DNA from: Metallibacterium scheffleri
Lineage (GTDB): Bacteria > Pseudomonadota > Gammaproteobacteria > Xanthomonadales > Rhodanobacteraceae
NCBI RefSeq assembly: GCF_002077135.1
Contig: NZ_LDOS01000002.1
Span: 1,513,865 to 1,577,864, forward strand
Direction: 5' to 3'
DNA: 64,000 nt
Shown here in pieces: positions 46,371 to 55,239 of the stretch. Numbering within the stretch: the stretch's first letter is position 1; each line of letters starts with the position of its first letter. The translations under genes and the position numbers were made by a program. The notes below the pieces were generated by a model. That model was not told the DNA's origin, made no database searches, and worked only from the letters and a program-made list of their open reading frames with translations.

Positions 46371-48200
46371 ATGTCCATCGAAAATCTGCGCAACATCGCC
46401 ATCGTCGCCCACGTCGATCATGGCAAGACCACGCTGGTCGACCAGCTGCTGAAGCAGTCCGGCACGCTCAGCGAGCGCGCCGTGGTGCCGGACCGCGTGA
46501 TGGACTCGAACGATCAGGAACGCGAGCGCGGCATCACCATCCTGGCCAAGAACACCGCGATCAACTGGCGTGAAAACCGCATCAACATCGTCGATACCCC
46601 GGGCCATGCCGATTTCGGCGGCGAGGTCGAGCGCGTGCTGTCGATGGTCGACTCGGTACTGATCCTGGTCGATGCCATGGATGGCCCGATGCCGCAGACG
46701 CGCTTCGTCACGCAGAAAGCCTTCAACATGGGCTTCAAGCCGATCGTGGTGATCAACAAGATCGACCGCCCCGGCGCGCGCCCGGATTGGGTACTGAACG
46801 CCACGTTCGATCTGTTCGACCGCCTCGGCGCGAGCAACGAGCAACTCGACTTTCCGGTGGTCTACGCCTCGGCGCTGCACGGCTACGCCAGCGATGACCC
46901 GGAGGCGCGCGACGGCGACATGACCCCGCTGTTTGAAGCGATCATGCGTCATGTGGCGCCGCCGCAGGTGGACCCGGAAGGCCCGTTCCAGATGCGCATC
47001 AGCCAGCTCGATTATTCGAGCTATGTAGGCCTGATCGGCATCGGCCGCATCCAGCGCGGGCGCATACGCACCAACACCGCGGTGACGGTGGTCGACCGCG
47101 AAGGCAAGCGCCGCAACGGACGCGTGCTGCAGGTACTGGGCTTTCTCGGCCTGGATCGGCGCGAGGTGCCGGAAGCCACGGCCGGTGACATTGTCGCGAT
47201 CTCGGGCCTCGAGGGCCTGAGCATTTCCGATACGGTGTGCGACCCGTCCGCACCCGAGGCGCTGCCAGCGCTGACCGTGGACGAGCCGACCATCAGCATG
47301 ACGTTCCAGGTCAATACCTCGCCGTTCGCCGGCAACAAGGAACACGGTGGCGGCAAGTACCTCACCAGCCGCCAGTTGCGCGAGCGCCTGGCGCGCGAAA
47401 CACTGCACAACGTCGCGCTGCGCGTGGAGGAAACCGAGGACGCCGACAAGTTCAAGGTATCCGGCCGCGGCGAGCTGCACCTATCGGTGCTGATCGAGAA
47501 CATGCGGCGCGAAAGTTACGAGCTGGCGGTATCGCGTCCCGAGGTCATCATCAAGGAAATCGACGGCCAGATGATGGAACCTTACGAGCAACTGGTGGTG
47601 GATCTCGAAGAGTCCTACCAGGGCGGCGTGATGGAGCGCTTGGGCATGCGTCGCGGCCAGTTGAAGAACATGGTGCCGGACGGCAAGGGCCGTGTGCGCA
47701 TCGATTACGTCATCCCGGCGCGTGGACTGATCGGCTTCCAGACCGAGTTTCGCACCCTCACCGCGGGCACTGGACTGCTGTTCCACGTGTTCGATCACTA
47801 CGGCCCGCGCGGCGATGGCGCCATCGCCAAGCGCCCCAACGGCGTGATGATCTCCAACGGCACCGGCCGCGCCCCGCCCTATGCGCTGATGGCGCTGCAG
47901 GAACGCGGGCGCCTGCTGGTGGGCGGCGGCGAGGAAATCTACGAAGGCCAGCTGGTGGGCATCCACGCCAAGGACAACGACCTCACCGTGAACGCGCTGC
48001 GCGAGAAGCAGATGACCAATATCCGCGCTGCCGGCAAGGACGAAAATGTCTCGCTCACGCCGCCAGTGAAGATGTCGCTGGAACAGGCGCTGGAATTCAT
48101 CGAGGAGGATGAGCTGGTCGAGGTCACGCCCAAGGGCATCCGCCTGCGCAAGAAAAACCTCACCGAGAATGACCGCAAGCGCGCTTCGCGCACGGGCTGA
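46371..48200 (+). CDS. typA: Ribosome-associated GTPase TypA/BipA
   Basis: A 609-residue translational GTPase that binds the ribosome and acts in subunit assembly and stress adaptation. The G-domain shows AHVDHGKTT (residues 13-21), the switch region [15 protein letters not shown] and NKIDRP. It is followed by EF-G-like domains and the family-specific C-terminal domain with [17 protein letters not shown]. The ATG at 46371 ([12 protein letters not shown]) matches the family start. It is divergent from the cyclophilin gene. Confidence 0.96.
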
Positions 48201-48349: not shown

Positions 48350-48380
48350 TTGACACAATCGTTCACAATCATGCTATAGC
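48350..48380 (+). promoter_or_regulatory. Promoter of the haem-oxygenase-like gene
   Basis: A perfect TTGACA (48350-48355) is followed 19 nt later by an extended -10 element, TGCTATAGC (hexamer 48375-48380). This AT-rich segment stands out from the surrounding GC-rich sequence and lies 30 nt before the start codon. The spacer is 2 nt longer than ideal, which the TGn extension may offset. Confidence 0.65.
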
Positions 48381-48410
48381 TTGCTTGCATCCACCCCTGA
48401 GGAGCGAGCA

Positions 48411-49190
48411 ATGAACAACGAATTTGTGCGTACCGGTGCACTGAAGGATCTGCGCAGTTATCCGCTGTGGGCACAGGAGGTCATGGAAAGCTGCGAACCG
48501 GCCAAGCGTGCGGTACTCGAGCATCCGATCTGGGCCATGATGCGCGAGGGCAGCCTGTCCGACGCTGCGATGCAGCGTTTCATCCTCAGCGCCTGGCCGG
48601 TGATCGAGCAATTCCCGCAGTACATGGCCATGAATCTGCTCAAGGCGCGCTATGGCCGCAGCCGTGGCGAAAACATGGCGCGGCGCTGGCTGGTGCGCAA
48701 TATCCGTGTAGAGCAAAACCACGCCGATTACTGGCTGGACTGGTCCGATGCCGTTGGTGCGCCACGCGAAGTGGTGCTCGGCGACAATGCCGCCGCGCCC
48801 GAGGCCGGCATCCTCAGCCACTGGTGCTGGCAGGTCAGCGCCAGCGACACCCTGGCTGCCGGCATGCTCGCAACCAACTATGCGGTGGAAGGCATCACGG
48901 GTGAATGGGCGCAGCTGGTCACCCAGGACGACATTTATGCCTATGGATTCGAGGCGCGCATTCGCGCCAAGGCGATGCGCTGGCTCAAGTTGCACGCCGA
49001 GTATGACGATACCCATCCTTGGGAAGCATTGGAAATCGTCAGCACGCTGGTCGGCCCGCACCCCAGCCCGGAAACGACCAATCACCTGCGACGCTGCGTA
49101 CTCAATACCTATGTCTACAAACGCATTGCCCTGGAACATTGCATGCAGGCACAGCAGCGCAACACCAGCGTGCAGGCGGTTGCGGCCTAA
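48411..49190 (+). CDS. Haem-oxygenase-like (HDO/TenA-PqqC fold) putative diiron enzyme
   Basis: A 259-residue, all-helical protein starting at 48411 after GAGGAG. The metal-ligand pattern of haem-oxygenase-like diiron oxidases can be followed: E101 and H104 in RVEQNHADYW, E160 in YAVEGITGEW, and H195/D199/H202 in LHAEYDDTHPWEALE. The last triad has exactly the H-x3-D-x2-H spacing of CADD-type proteins. The first Glu-His pair is closer together (E-x2-H) than in CADD (E-x6-H), so the first ligand is less certain. Relatives include CADD and its homologues that make para-aminobenzoate, N-oxygenases and decarboxylases. The substrate here is unknown and no biosynthetic cluster adjoins it. Confidence 0.72.
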   Translation: MNNEFVRTGALKDLRSYPLWAQEVMESCEPAKRAVLEHPIWAMMREGSLSDAAMQRFILSAWPVIEQFPQYMAMNLLKARYGRSRGENMARRWLVRNIRVEQNHADYWLDWSDAVGAPREVVLGDNAAAPEAGILSHWCWQVSASDTLAAGMLATNYAVEGITGEWAQLVTQDDIYAYGFEARIRAKAMRWLKLHAEYDDTHPWEALEIVSTLVGPHPSPETTNHLRRCVLNTYVYKRIALEHCMQAQQRNTSVQAVAA

Positions 49191-49262
49191 GTTCCCGCTT
49201 TGCCATCATCTCCGCCGCGGCGCAATCGGGTACCGTGGCGGCGTTGGTGGAGAATGATGGGC

Positions 49263-52034
49263 ATGCGCAAGATCGACCCGGACCCGCGACCGCTGCCGTT
49301 GGAGCAGCAGTTGCGTCCGTTGCTGGTCAGCATGATCGCGATCGTGATGCTGGTGCTGCTGTTGACCTGGTTTGCCCTGCAGGTGCAGGTTGCCGTCGCC
49401 GGGTTCCTCAATGGCGAGAGCATCTGGTCGAAGGCGCAGAAGCAGGCCATCATCGAGTTGTATGCCTACGCCACGCATGGCGATGCTCGGAATTTGCGCG
49501 GGTATCAGGACAACATGCGGGTCGTCATGGCTGATCGCGCCGGGCGCGATGCCGTGGCCGGCGCGCACCCGCAACCCGCGCTGGCCCGACGTGCATTCGC
49601 CAGTACCGGTGCCCTGCCGCAATCCATCCCGCTGCTGGTCTTTGCCATGCAGCATCTCGCTGCAGCGCCGTATATCAGCACGGCGTTGCGCAGCTGGCGC
49701 GCCAGCGACCCCGCCATGGATGAATTGCCGGGCATCGCGCAGCACCTGCAGGCGCTGTACGCGCAGCCGCATCCCTCGCCCATCGAAACCAGCGTCGAGG
49801 CCGCGCGCATCCTGCGGATCAATGCCACCGTGGCGCCGCTGGCCGATACATTTTCTAGAAGCATCGCCCTCGGCGCAGCCTGGTTGGCGCGCGTCCTGTT
49901 CTGGTCGATGTGCAGCGCCACGCTGCTGATGCTGGCGATCTGGTTGTACTTCGCGCGGCGCACCCTGCGCGCATTACGCGGCTCCGAATCGCGCTATCGC
50001 ACCCTGCTGGACGGCGCGCACGACGCCATCGCCGTGGTCGATGCCGGCAGCGGCCGCATTCTCGAAATCAACCAGGCCGCCGAGCACATGATCGGCGGCA
50101 GCCGCCAGCAAATCAGTGGCCGCCTCTTCGCCAGCCTGTTCCCGGAGGGCCTGCCCAGGCTTGACGACGCGGCCGCACCCAGCGCGCATGCCGACGTGGC
50201 GCTGGCCGGCAACGGCGATCGCGTGCGCCATGTCGCCATCAGCCTCAGCCGCAACCAGTGGGGAGAGCGCGCCGTGCAACTGGCCATCATGCGCGACATG
50301 ACCGAGCGCCTGCGCATGGAGGAAGACCGTCGCGTCGCCGCAGAAGCGCTGGCCAACATCGCCGAAGGCGTGCTGATTGCCGATGCCGAGCGCCGCATCA
50401 TCAGTGGCAACGCCGCCGCCGAGGCGCTGACCGGATACAGCGTCAGCGAACTGATCGGCACGCCGCTGGACGCGCTGCGCAGCCAGTCGACTGGTGCTGC
50501 GCTGGATGTCGCGTTGTGGCAGGAAGTCGCCTATGTCGGTCACTGGCAAGGCCGCGTGCAGAGCCGGCGCAAGGACGGGCGCACGTATCCGGAACGACTC
50601 AGTCTGAGCGCGATCCGTGCCAGCGACGGCACGCCGCACCGTTATGTCGCGGTGTTCGACGACATTTCCGAATCCGAAGCCTATCAGCGCCAGCTTGAAC
50701 ACCTCGCCCTGCACGATCCCCTGACCGGGTTGCTGAATCGCGCCGCATTCGAGCAGGAGGCCGCGCGCCTGCTGATCGATATGCGCCGCCACGGACGTGG
50801 CGCAGTTATGCTGTTCCTTGATCTGGATGGCTTCAAGGCGGTCAACGACAGCTACGGGCACGCCTTCGGCGATCAGTTGTTGCAGCAGGTCGGACAGCGT
50901 CTGCAAAACCAGATCGCCGGGCAGAACCGCGCCGGTCGCATCGGCGGCGACGAGTTCACTTTGCTGCTCTTCGATCCCGGCTCGCGCGACGAGGCCCTGC
51001 CCGTCGTGCGCAAGCTGCTGCTGTTACTCAGCGAACCTTTTCATGTGCTCGAACACGAGATTTTCCTGTCCGCCAGCATTGGCGTCTCCAGCTTCCCCGA
51101 GGATGGCGACGATCCCGCCACGCTGATCGCCAATGCCGATGCGGCGATGTATTCGGTCAAGGCCGACGAGCGCAACAGCTATCGCGTCTATACCAAGGTC
51201 ATGCAGGCGTCGACGCGCACGCGCCTGACTCTGGCCGGGGAATTGCGTCAAGCCATCGCGCGCGGCGAGTTTCATCTCGTCTACCAGCCCAGCCTCGATT
51301 TGCGTACGCGCAAGCTGATCGCGGTGGAAGCATTGCTGCGCTGGCAGCACCCCGAGCGCGGCGAAATCTCACCGGCCGAGTTCATCCCGCTCGCCGAAAG
51401 CCTGGGCATGGTACGTGCGGTGGGCGCATGGGTGATCGACGCGGCCTGCCGACAGATCCGCGCCTGGCTGGATGCCGGCCTGCCGATGCTGCGCGTGGCG
51501 GTGAATATTTCGGCCAGCCACCTGCGTCATCTACAGTTCGTCGAGGATCTGCGCACCACGCTGCAGCAGCACCGCTGCCCGCCCGAGGCGCTGATGATCG
51601 AGTTGACCGAAAGCGCGATTCTGCACATCGGCGAGCGCTCACGGCACACGCTGGCGGCGTTGCACGAGCTCGGCATCGGCGTGGCCGTGGACGATTTCGG
51701 CACGGGTTACTCGTCGCTGGCCTATCTCAAACTGCCGGCGATCCGCACCATCAAGGTCGACCAGTCCTTCGTCAATGGTCTGCCCGACGACGCCAACGAC
51801 GCCGCGATCACGCGTGCCATTCTGGCGCTGGCGCAAAGTCTCGGCCTGGAAGCCATCGCCGAGGGCATCGAGACCGAACCGCAGCTTGCTTTCCTGCTCG
51901 CGGCAGGCTGTCTAGAAGGCCAGGGCTACCTGTTCGCACGCCCGCTGCTGCCGGATGCCATCGCGGCGCTTCTGGCAGAGTCCCGGATGCCGCCTACATC
52001 AGGCGCTGCGCCGAACGCCGCAATGCCAGGGTGA
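49263..52034 (+). CDS. Membrane PAS-GGDEF-EAL c-di-GMP protein
   Basis: A protein of about 923 residues. Two membrane helices (about 20-45 and 210-238) flank a periplasmic region, and then come two PAS domains (about 248-370 and 375-490). The GGDEF domain has an intact RIGGDEF near 559-565 and the EAL domain (about 660-910) has EALLRW near 689. The EAL catalytic set appears complete (AVNISASHLR, ELTES, DDFGTGYSS, KVDQSF, EGQGYLF). There is no RxxD inhibitory site before GGDEF. Synthesis, hydrolysis or both are possible. Three clustered ATGs (49254, 49257, 49263) leave the start uncertain; I prefer 49263 for its spacing from GGTGGAG. The 3' end overlaps the convergent hdeD-like gene by 41 nt. 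Confidence 0.88.
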   Translation: MRKIDPDPRPLPLEQQLRPLLVSMIAIVMLVLLLTWFALQVQVAVAGFLNGESIWSKAQKQAIIELYAYATHGDARNLRGYQDNMRVVMADRAGRDAVAGAHPQPALARRAFASTGALPQSIPLLVFAMQHLAAAPYISTALRSWRASDPAMDELPGIAQHLQALYAQPHPSPIETSVEAARILRINATVAPLADTFSRSIALGAAWLARVLFWSMCSATLLMLAIWLYFARRTLRALRGSESRYRTLLDGAHDAIAVVDAGSGRILEINQAAEHMIGGSRQQISGRLFASLFPEGLPRLDDAAAPSAHADVALAGNGDRVRHVAISLSRNQWGERAVQLAIMRDMTERLRMEEDRRVAAEALANIAEGVLIADAERRIISGNAAAEALTGYSVSELIGTPLDALRSQSTGAALDVALWQEVAYVGHWQGRVQSRRKDGRTYPERLSLSAIRASDGTPHRYVAVFDDISESEAYQRQLEHLALHDPLTGLLNRAAFEQEAARLLIDMRRHGRGAVMLFLDLDGFKAVNDSYGHAFGDQLLQQVGQRLQNQIAGQNRAGRIGGDEFTLLLFDPGSRDEALPVVRKLLLLLSEPFHVLEHEIFLSASIGVSSFPEDGDDPATLIANADAAMYSVKADERNSYRVYTKVMQASTRTRLTLAGELRQAIARGEFHLVYQPSLDLRTRKLIAVEALLRWQHPERGEISPAEFIPLAESLGMVRAVGAWVIDAACRQIRAWLDAGLPMLRVAVNISASHLRHLQFVEDLRTTLQQHRCPPEALMIELTESAILHIGERSRHTLAALHELGIGVAVDDFGTGYSSLAYLKLPAIRTIKVDQSFVNGLPDDANDAAITRAILALAQSLGLEAIAEGIETEPQLAFLLAAGCLEGQGYLFARPLLPDAIAALLAESRMPPTSGAAPNAAMPG

Positions 52035-53480: not shown

Positions 53481-54803
53481 TCATCGAGATCGGCACGCCA
53501 AGGCATGGGCTTGGGTTAACGTGAAAAGCCCCTGCTGAGCGAAGTAGCTATTGGGCCAGCGCTGATGGTCCTCGCGGGTGTGACCGTGCCCACGCCGACC
53601 CTCGTATGCACGAAGGATAGAGCGCAGACGCCGGCGGATAAACCCGTCGAGCTTGCTGAAAGTGATCCGGTGGGCATGCCTGAAGTACTGGTACCAGCCC
53701 CGCAGCATCGGGTTGATCTGGCTGATGATGCTCGCCAGCGAACGCCCCTTGGTACGCGGCGTGTGCTGTCGAATTTTGTCCAGCATCGCGTTCCAGCTCT
53801 TCGTGCGTACCCGGCGTTGACCGGCCTCGAACCGATAGCCCAGAAACTCGAACCCGCGGCCTACCTGTCGGCAGTCGCCGACGTGGGTCTTGTCCGGGTG
53901 CAAGGTCAGCTCGTGGGCGTCCACCCACGTGCCAATCTCGGCCAGCGCACGTTGCGCCTCATCCGCGGTCTGACACAGCACCACGAAGTCATCGGCATAA
54001 CGCACCATCCGATAGCCGCCTGCGGCCATCGTCTCGTCGAGCCCATGCAGGTAGATATTGGACAACAGCGGACTGATCACCGCACCCTGCGGCGTACCGC
54101 CCGTGGGGATCCAGCGTTCCAGTCCCGCCATCACTTCCTGCTTGAGCCACGATTCCAGCAAGCGCAGTACGCGGCCATCCGCGATCTGCTCGCGCACCCG
54201 CGCCATCAGACCGGCGTGCGGAATGCTGTCAAAGTAGCCGGCAAGGTCGGCATCCACCACATGGCAATACCCCGCCCGCAGCAGTGCATCCACCTCCCGC
54301 AGCGCACGCTTGGCACCGCGGCCGGGCCGAAACCCGTAGCTGTGTGCGCAAAAGAGCGACTCGAAGATCGGCTCAATCACCAGCCGTACCGCCGTTTGCA
54401 CCACGCGATCCTTCACCGTCGGTATCCCCAGTGGACGGGTTTGGCCCCGCCCTTTGGGAATCTCGACCCGCCTGATCGCTTGGGGCCGGTACGTGTCACT
54501 GCGCAGCGCCCTCGCCAGCTCGTCGAGGTAGCGCTCGGCATGGGCCGCGAACGCGTCCACACTTTGACGATCCACCCCGGCCGCTCCGCAATTGCGCACC
54601 ACCCGTCCCCACGCCGCTTGCAGCGTCGCCGGACGCATCACCTTGTCCATCAGGCTGAACCATTTTCCTCCCTTCACGCCGTTGTCCAGCGCTGCCAACA
54701 TTCGGTCCGTCCATACCGAGGCTTCCACCCAACTCCAATCGCGAGTCTGGGTATCTTCATCGTGCTTAGCCGTTACCGGCACTTGCGATGAGTTTGCGTG
54801 CAT
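53481..54803 (-). CDS. ltrA: Group II intron reverse transcriptase/maturase
   Basis: A 440-residue intron-encoded protein. The RT domain spans about 60-330 with RT blocks RRVEIPKGRGQTRPLGIPTVKDR, FRPGRGAKRAL, the catalytic YADDFVVLC and FLGYRF. It is followed by a maturase (domain X) region with GWYQYFRHAHRITFSKLDGFIRRRLR. No HNH endonuclease domain follows. Retrohoming may therefore depend on nascent-strand priming, as for other endonuclease-less introns. I chose the ATG at 54803, with GGGAGG 9 nt upstream, over the TTG at 54812. All key residues are present. Confidence 0.93.
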   Translation of the reverse strand: MHANSSQVPVTAKHDEDTQTRDWSWVEASVWTDRMLAALDNGVKGGKWFSLMDKVMRPATLQAAWGRVVRNCGAAGVDRQSVDAFAAHAERYLDELARALRSDTYRPQAIRRVEIPKGRGQTRPLGIPTVKDRVVQTAVRLVIEPIFESLFCAHSYGFRPGRGAKRALREVDALLRAGYCHVVDADLAGYFDSIPHAGLMARVREQIADGRVLRLLESWLKQEVMAGLERWIPTGGTPQGAVISPLLSNIYLHGLDETMAAGGYRMVRYADDFVVLCQTADEAQRALAEIGTWVDAHELTLHPDKTHVGDCRQVGRGFEFLGYRFEAGQRRVRTKSWNAMLDKIRQHTPRTKGRSLASIISQINPMLRGWYQYFRHAHRITFSKLDGFIRRRLRSILRAYEGRRGHGHTREDHQRWPNSYFAQQGLFTLTQAHALACRSR

Positions 54804-55239
54804 CGTTCTCAACCTCCCGAATCCACCTTCCTGCCTCCCTTCCCTCCACGCGGTTTTGCTAGCCGCGCTTCGCGGACCTCAACTCAAGATCCTGCGGTAC
54901 TACGAAGGCTCTGACTCCCGCACCCGTTCACATCGGGCGCGGGTCTCCCCGCTTACTGCATCGCACCTTCCCAATGTTCCGTCCCCAACCACACGGTGTG
55001 CCCGATCATCGCTTTGACAGCCACCTCAGCGTGATCGGTGAGTTCCAGGCTTCGCCATGAATGAGCAGGCTCGCCGCAACACCCCGCCGAAACGGGTTCG
55101 CTTTACTACGGACCATCAGTTCGCTTCCGGTTGCTCTCCACCCCGCCTCTCAGCGACGCAGTTACCTTCAACTACAGGGCCTGTGGCTTGCCCCGACGCG
55201 GATTTGCACCGCGCTGATACGATGCCCTCACGGGCGCAC

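Follow-up and report, generated by a model that had tools for sequence, protein, structure and literature searches.

A predicted UndA-type decarboxylase gene in a conserved locus with a c-di-GMP sensor gene in Metallibacterium scheffleri

Organization of the undA locus

The window, that is, the whole 64,000-nucleotide stretch of Metallibacterium scheffleri DNA analysed here (contig C2, NZ_LDOS01000002.1, positions 1513865-1577864), belongs to a 3.76-Mb genome in five contigs with a completeness of 99.56%. It carries a gene for a predicted haem-oxygenase-like diiron protein, identified below as an undA ortholog, and, beginning 63 nt past its end on the same strand, a partner gene for a membrane sensor protein with two PAS stretches, a GGDEF and an EAL domain (Table 1). 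Inspection of the sequence confirmed that the undA reading frame is real, with an ATG at 48411, an end at 49190 and AGGAG before the ATG. The same-strand neighbour upstream is typA/bipA; the typA-undA same-strand arrangement was seen in loci of the window's genus only, and in one locus (L043) typA adjoins undA on the opposite strand. Elsewhere in the window, a gene for a group II intron reverse transcriptase/maturase (RVT_1, GIIM; 53481-54812, minus strand) lies beside a diphthamide-synthase-like gene.

Table 1. Features of the undA locus, in window coordinates
Feature	Position	Strand	Basis
typA/bipA, upstream neighbour of undA	46371..48200	+	
Promoter-like block, TTGACA (48350-48355) and TATAGC (48375-48380), 19-nt spacer	48350..48380	+	sequence; genus alignment
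AGGAG ribosome-binding site	48400..48404	+	sequence inspection
undA ortholog, 259 aa, predicted haem-oxygenase-like diiron fatty-acid decarboxylase	48411..49190	+	profile, structure and alignment comparisons
Codons spanning ligands E101 to H104 (E-x2-H)	48711..48722	+	
Codon of ligand E160	48888..48890	+	
Codon of W191, which corresponds to W190 of UndA (radical initiation)	48981..48983	+	
Codons from ligand H195 via D199 to H202 (H-x3-D-x2-H)	48993..49016	+	
Partner gene, membrane sensor-PAS-PAS-GGDEF-EAL, 926 aa with a start at 49254 (alternatives 49257 and 49263)	49254..52034	+	
RbdA-type sensor at the N-terminus, all-helical, bounded on either side by membrane helices as judged by inspection	49287..49967	+	alignment A3, profile-profile match, model
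GGDEF domain, GGDEF motif intact	50706..51176	+	Pfam PF00990, motif listing
EAL domain, EALLR and DDFGTG intact	51240..51944	+	Pfam PF00563, motif listing

Among the best 80 of 561 protein matches, the nearest named relative of the undA product comes from a Rhodanobacter MAG (isolate SulCav_PC08, 97% identical), followed by proteins from metagenome bins whose labels stop at Proteobacteria, Pseudomonadota or Lysobacteraceae; further relatives in that set belong to Rhodanobacter, Dyella, Frateuria and Rudaea, and Pseudomonas appears at 51-53%. One undA copy (L009:1501-2277, from genome G007) contains an in-frame TGA, which reflects either decay or an assembly error.

Upstream region of undA

The first-pass annotation, made from the sequence alone, described a strong dedicated promoter with a TTGACA hexamer ahead of undA. 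The hexamer is indeed present on the plus strand (Table 1), and the strength ascribed to it finds no backing: a promoter scan that allowed spacers of 16-18 nt called no sigma-70-type site upstream of undA, the -10-like TATAGC is poor and stands 19 nt from TTGACA, and an upstream alignment of ten undA copies of the genus and three from other genera (L009 excluded) retained TTGACA in 4 of the 10 genus copies. A strong sigma-70 promoter is therefore unsupported by both the scan and the genus alignment. A block of the form GACACA..TTCAC..TATAGC/TATCAC occurs in nine of the 10 genus copies, with its TTCAC..TAT part in all ten, and was seen in none of the three copies from other genera. Because the block is kept in nine of the 10 genus copies, a conserved element likely lies upstream of undA. 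In a separate observation made by eye, an imperfect palindrome, CACAAT...ATTGTG, was noticed upstream of undA in L010, and L008 and L030 are much alike; in these three loci a regulator may bind to the palindrome, which would overlap the promoter.

Identification of the enzyme as UndA

The undA product matches the Pfam family Haem_oxygenas_2 with 39 bits (cut-off 28.9). Its best matches among solved structures are 3oql (E 8e-87), 4wwj (2e-82) and 6p5q (3e-82), whereas CADD follows at 1e-4; identity is 46-52% to UndA-type structures and 17-19% to CADD, and over the full length no other solved HDO is as similar to it as UndA. An AlphaFold model of the window protein, computed from 41 sequences, has a mean pLDDT of 91.2. 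Foldseek ranks 3oql, 6p5q, 4wx0 and 4wwj first for this model, and VIA-align gives Z scores of 36.6-37.4 and rmsd values of 1.0-1.5 Å against UndA-type structures, with CADD next at Z 23.5; the overlay of the predicted model with 3oql and 4wwj spans 244-255 residues at 1.0-1.5 Å. Judged from the sequence comparisons and the predicted fold, the window gene encodes an UndA ortholog and not a CADD variant. The earlier description of the protein as CADD-type is contradicted by these E values and by its score of 40.8 bits on the CADD model TIGR04305, far under the cut-off of 200. As an enzyme it is ordinary, an added member of a known family. Since the protein is an UndA ortholog, its predicted reaction is one already assigned in Pseudomonas, and the suggestion of a reaction not yet assigned falls away.

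TenA is not known to have the metal site. Identity as TenA, the orthology that the first-pass annotation had set against its own reading, is rejected on both score and similarity: the protein reaches 20.3 bits on PF03070 (cut-off 22), structures labelled TenA other than 3oql share 7-16% identity with it, and TenA/PqqC structures align at Z 17-22 (maximum 22.0).

Metal ligands and proposed chemistry

The H-x3-D-x2-H triad recognised at first reading corresponds to H195-D199-H202; E101 and H104 are the first Glu and His, correctly counted as three residues apart. Together with E160 they make a complete set of three His and three carboxylate residues, each aligned with an identical residue in 3oql, 4wwj and 6p5q (the numbers of the UndA ligands themselves we presume). 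As to the overlay proposed at first reading, the six residues align with the UndA ligands, and the predicted model as a whole fits UndA-type structures closely; the fold and the ligand set of a haem-oxygenase-like dimetal enzyme are borne out, and the idea of a novel CADD-like site is not. The spacing of E101 and H104 had been regarded as altered. E-x2-H stands at the aligned place in the same three structures and is UndA's own pattern, so CADD was the wrong yardstick and the spacing is not altered. The six ligands and W191 are invariant in 29 aligned family sequences (alignment A1, without L009 and its in-frame TGA) and in 41 sequences including Pseudomonas (A2, picked for diversity and not covering all loci), and both the ligands and the tryptophan are also kept in a remote UndA homologue in genome G268.

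UndA is a diiron decarboxylase that converts lauric acid to 1-undecene, and enzymes of this kind turn medium-length fatty acids into volatile alkenes. The fatty acids of Rhodanobacteraceae may differ in being iso-branched, and for this reason the true substrate here may be other than lauric acid. We propose that a free medium-chain fatty acid would bind by its carboxylate to the predicted diiron site formed by the six ligands, where O2 would be activated; a terminal alkene would then leave along with CO2, and W191 probably relays the electron, as in Pseudomonas. According to PMC13108848, the acid carboxylate of the UndA substrate sits on Fe1 and O2 gives a peroxo-diferric species; either C3-H or the carboxylate is then oxidised, leading to CO2 and the 1-alkene, and a radical presumably starts at Trp190.

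An UndA fold might also serve a shifted substrate, such as an iso-branched, 3-hydroxy or longer acid, or a different outcome such as desaturation, in which case the product would be a lipid acting in the membrane or in signalling rather than a volatile 1-alkene. About half of the residues differ from Pseudomonas UndA, a structure with bound beta-hydroxydodecanoate exists (4wx0), and the outcomes of HDO enzymes vary widely, as PMC13108848 (section 4) sets out; yet all ligands and the radical tryptophan are kept, and the alignment contains no large insertion or deletion relative to UndA, so that we consider such a shift improbable.

Relationship to p-aminobenzoate formation

The CADD comparison had also brought up para-aminobenzoate (pABA) formation, together with the question of whether the genome lacks pab genes. 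It does lack two of them, as profile searches for pabB and pabC found neither gene in the host genome. The host (G000) has one chorismate-binding match (PF00425), below the pabB cut-off, which by eye is TrpE-like (L031) and followed by TrpG- and TrpD-like genes, and two class-IV aminotransferases (L123 and L124) that by eye resemble IlvE and, at 62-76 bits, fall short of the pabC model's cut-off of 177. A self-sacrificing pABA synthase of the CADD/NePabS kind, replacing the lost pabB and pabC, could be fitted to this background, for the host keeps DHPS (L121), the step of folate synthesis that consumes pABA, in fold CADD comes second to UndA, and the undA product is the sole match to PF14518 and PF03070 in the genome. 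We nevertheless judge it very improbable, given that the similarity to UndA is far above that to CADD, that the score stays below the TIGR04305 cut-off, and that the position of the sacrificial Tyr27 of CADD is occupied by Trp41 in the window protein; since 10 sequences in the UndA alignment of 41 have Tyr there, this residue does not discriminate by itself. The alignment with CADD ends ahead of Lys152, the amine donor of that enzyme.

The distribution of the genes within the genus speaks against replacement as well. G004-G008 carry pabB and pabC side by side; the pair was not found in G000, G002, G003 and G009-G012, a set in which completeness falls to 77-90% for G002, G003 and G010. All five genus members with pabBC have undA, as do five of the seven without the pair (Fisher p 0.47); G001, in which not even a TrpE match was obtained, is left out of this table, and a lone chorismate-binding match accompanied by no pabC match was taken as TrpE, an assignment inspected by eye for G000 only. 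In G011, which is 99% complete, undA and pabBC are both missing, so pABA must come from elsewhere there. The gene does not behave as a pabBC replacement, and a CADD-type pABA synthase is rejected on similarity, on the TIGR04305 cut-off and on distribution relative to pabBC.

The partner gene

No Pfam match was found for the N-terminal region of the partner protein. This sensor region carries a largely conserved GES-x-WSK-x-QK motif, and its model is all-helical (pLDDT 88); Foldseek returned no match for the sensor fold at E <= 0.001, and the best VIA-align Z of 11.8 is within the chance range for helical bundles. Profile-profile comparison with hhalign indicated that the sensors of Pseudomonas and Rhodanobacteraceae are homologous (probability 99.8, E 2e-30, 214 columns).

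The catalytic part has another affinity. The module of the window partner scores 364-385 bits against structures named "Motility regulator", which we take to be MorA, and a related "Diguanylate cyclase" structure, 246-247 bits against DosP and 191 bits against PA0861 (RbdA). For two Pseudomonas partners, by contrast, the scores against RbdA PA0861 were 804 and 848 bits. The partner in L043 follows the same MorA-over-PA0861 pattern as that of the window. These scores do not identify the PAS-GGDEF-EAL module as an RbdA ortholog; by bit scores, as distinct from a tree, the partner keeps an RbdA-type sensor on a MorA-like catalytic module. At the place of the RxxD site of Pseudomonas RbdA, presumably an inhibitory site, the motif listing reads AGQN.

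Linkage of undA and the sensor across genomes

With a sensor profile made from 36 sequences chosen for diversity and not covering all loci (A3), the sensor was detected in 29 of 29 undA-bearing genomes and in 6 of 32 others among 61 relatives (Fisher p 1.4e-11, a value that ignores relatedness). In these 61 genomes, every one of the 31 undA copies is followed by the sensor on the same strand, with 88-196 nt separating the matched segments, and two genomes (G004 and G025) hold two undA-sensor pairs each. Named loci gave a similar picture: the sensor flanks undA in 77 of 80, in the order undA-sensor in 65 and sensor-undA in 12, with three loci showing no sensor; these 80 are the best of 561 matches, closely related and partly from the same genomes as the 61, and the counts are not independent. 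The sensor-undA order comprises 11 Pseudomonas loci and one from a Pseudogulbenkiania MAG. The first-pass view of undA as a stand-alone gene is refuted by this linkage across relatives and named loci.

The three loci with no sensor are of two kinds. In an Oxalobacteraceae MAG (L093:2062-5750), undA adjoins a divergently oriented PAS-GGDEF-EAL gene that lacks an RbdA-type sensor, and two Methylibium loci (L062 and L092) gave no GGDEF-EAL match in the flanks examined. Just upstream of undA in the former of these (L062:2737-4507, a Methylibium MAG), a hydrolase resembling lysophospholipase or monoacylglycerol lipase by eye was noticed, and a source of free fatty acid is a possible role for its product.

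An even sample of the class (369 genomes) contained an UndA match in four, namely the host, G318, G268 and G369, and the sensor in 13; the G369 match is truncated by a contig end and was left uninterpreted. In G318, undA and the sensor gene lie side by side. In G268, from another family, the remote UndA homologue mentioned above follows a GGDEF-EAL gene by 22 nt (L142:1390-4702), and the sensor profile gave no match in that gene. Eleven of the 13 sensor-bearing genomes had no UndA match at E 1e-10, with up to seven candidates scored per genome. Loci L126-L141, from several other families, hold RbdA-type sensors in genomes with no UndA match or, in L132, apart from undA. The sensor family is wider than its link to undA. 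When 36 linked sensors and 16 unlinked ones were placed in a FastTree tree, the linked ones split into three or more groups separated by unlinked sensors, the largest purely linked clade containing 25 sequences; a single clade of undA-linked sensors was not found in this one tree, and either repeated loss or repeated association of the sensor with undA could account for it.

A further alternative is that the GGDEF-EAL neighbour of a genuinely active UndA is simply a co-inherited passenger with no functional link to it. The arrangement within Rhodanobacteraceae could be one inherited event, and the sensor occurs also where undA does not, but the undA-sensor association outlasts both an inversion of gene order and an exchange of the catalytic module, GGDEF-EAL genes of a different kind adjoin undA in G268 and L093, and G004 and G025 carry the pair twice. 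We therefore consider a passenger relationship rather unlikely, though it is a more serious alternative than a shifted substrate.

Proposed role of the locus

We think it probable that the window holds a gene for an alkene-forming UndA decarboxylase in a conserved two-gene unit that would be coupled to c-di-GMP signalling. Its role would most likely be a volatile or membrane-lipid output tied to a c-di-GMP-controlled lifestyle, in which the helical extracytoplasmic domain of the partner would sense a related hydrophobic molecule.

The biology reported for Pseudomonas is compatible with such a role. In PMC10614000, biofilms of P. fluorescens MFE01 mature poorly once undA is lost, a defect repaired by wild-type vapour; 1-undecene is presented there as an airborne signal that matures biofilms, dedicated receptors are hypothesised, and work on RbdA is planned. 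The same source credits Rui et al. 2014 with the observation that undA always occurs with rbdA in various Pseudomonas genomes. For RbdA itself, the cues named in the parts of the literature covered are NO, glutamate and others (PMC11372557) and, as a proposal, Mn2+ (PMC10294637). Our partial coverage of the literature yielded one paper that names RbdA together with undA or undecene and no report joining undA, undecene and c-di-GMP, and a limited search yielded none of 1-undecene in Rhodanobacteraceae; the undecene of PMC8772769 concerns a Pseudomonas.

The pairing of undA with a sensor gene recurs in bacteria that are only distantly related, and this suggests that UndA chemistry may be what the sensor detects. 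More specifically, and tentatively, the RbdA-type sensor could be a receptor for the alkene (e.g. 1-undecene) or for its medium-chain acid precursor and set c-di-GMP turnover in response. Such a hydrocarbon-sensing circuit would be common to Pseudomonas and Rhodanobacteraceae, its sensor and undA having stayed linked through changes of gene order and catalytic module. The occurrence of the sensor apart from undA and the other cues tied to RbdA in print are counterweights to a coupling of this kind. The locus matters more than the enzyme alone: a linkage that outlasts inversion and module exchange in another bacterial family makes the receptor hypothesis directly testable, and the UndA enzymes from outside Pseudomonas are candidates for 1-alkene production.

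Comparison with known systems

The closest known enzymes are the UndA proteins of Pseudomonas (PDB 4wwj, 4wx0 and 6p5q, and 3oql), with which the window protein has in common its predicted fold, the six ligands, E-x2-H, the radical tryptophan and a similar length, and from which it differs by a one-residue insertion near residues 121-124 besides its overall divergence. The structure 3oql, P. syringae PSPTO1738, was deposited as a "TenA homolog" and groups with UndA. TenA and PqqC themselves share the overall fold with the window protein, at low identity and a score below the Pfam cut-off. The pABA synthases CADD and NePabS likewise share the haem-oxygenase-like fold seen in our model and, according to PMC13108848, a 3H/3C dimetal ligand set like that of the window protein; in CADD, the first Glu and His are seven residues apart by the account given in the first-pass annotation.

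At the level of the locus, the nearest counterpart is the undA-rbdA arrangement of Pseudomonas, where undA stands beside a same-strand gene for a membrane sensor-PAS-GGDEF-EAL protein (RbdA, PA0861) with a sensor of the same, homologous family. In the window, by contrast, the gene order is inverted, with undA first, and the partner has two PAS stretches and a MorA-like GGDEF-EAL module. The conserved locus of undA and a c-di-GMP sensor gene described here thus both extends and varies the Pseudomonas undA-rbdA arrangement.
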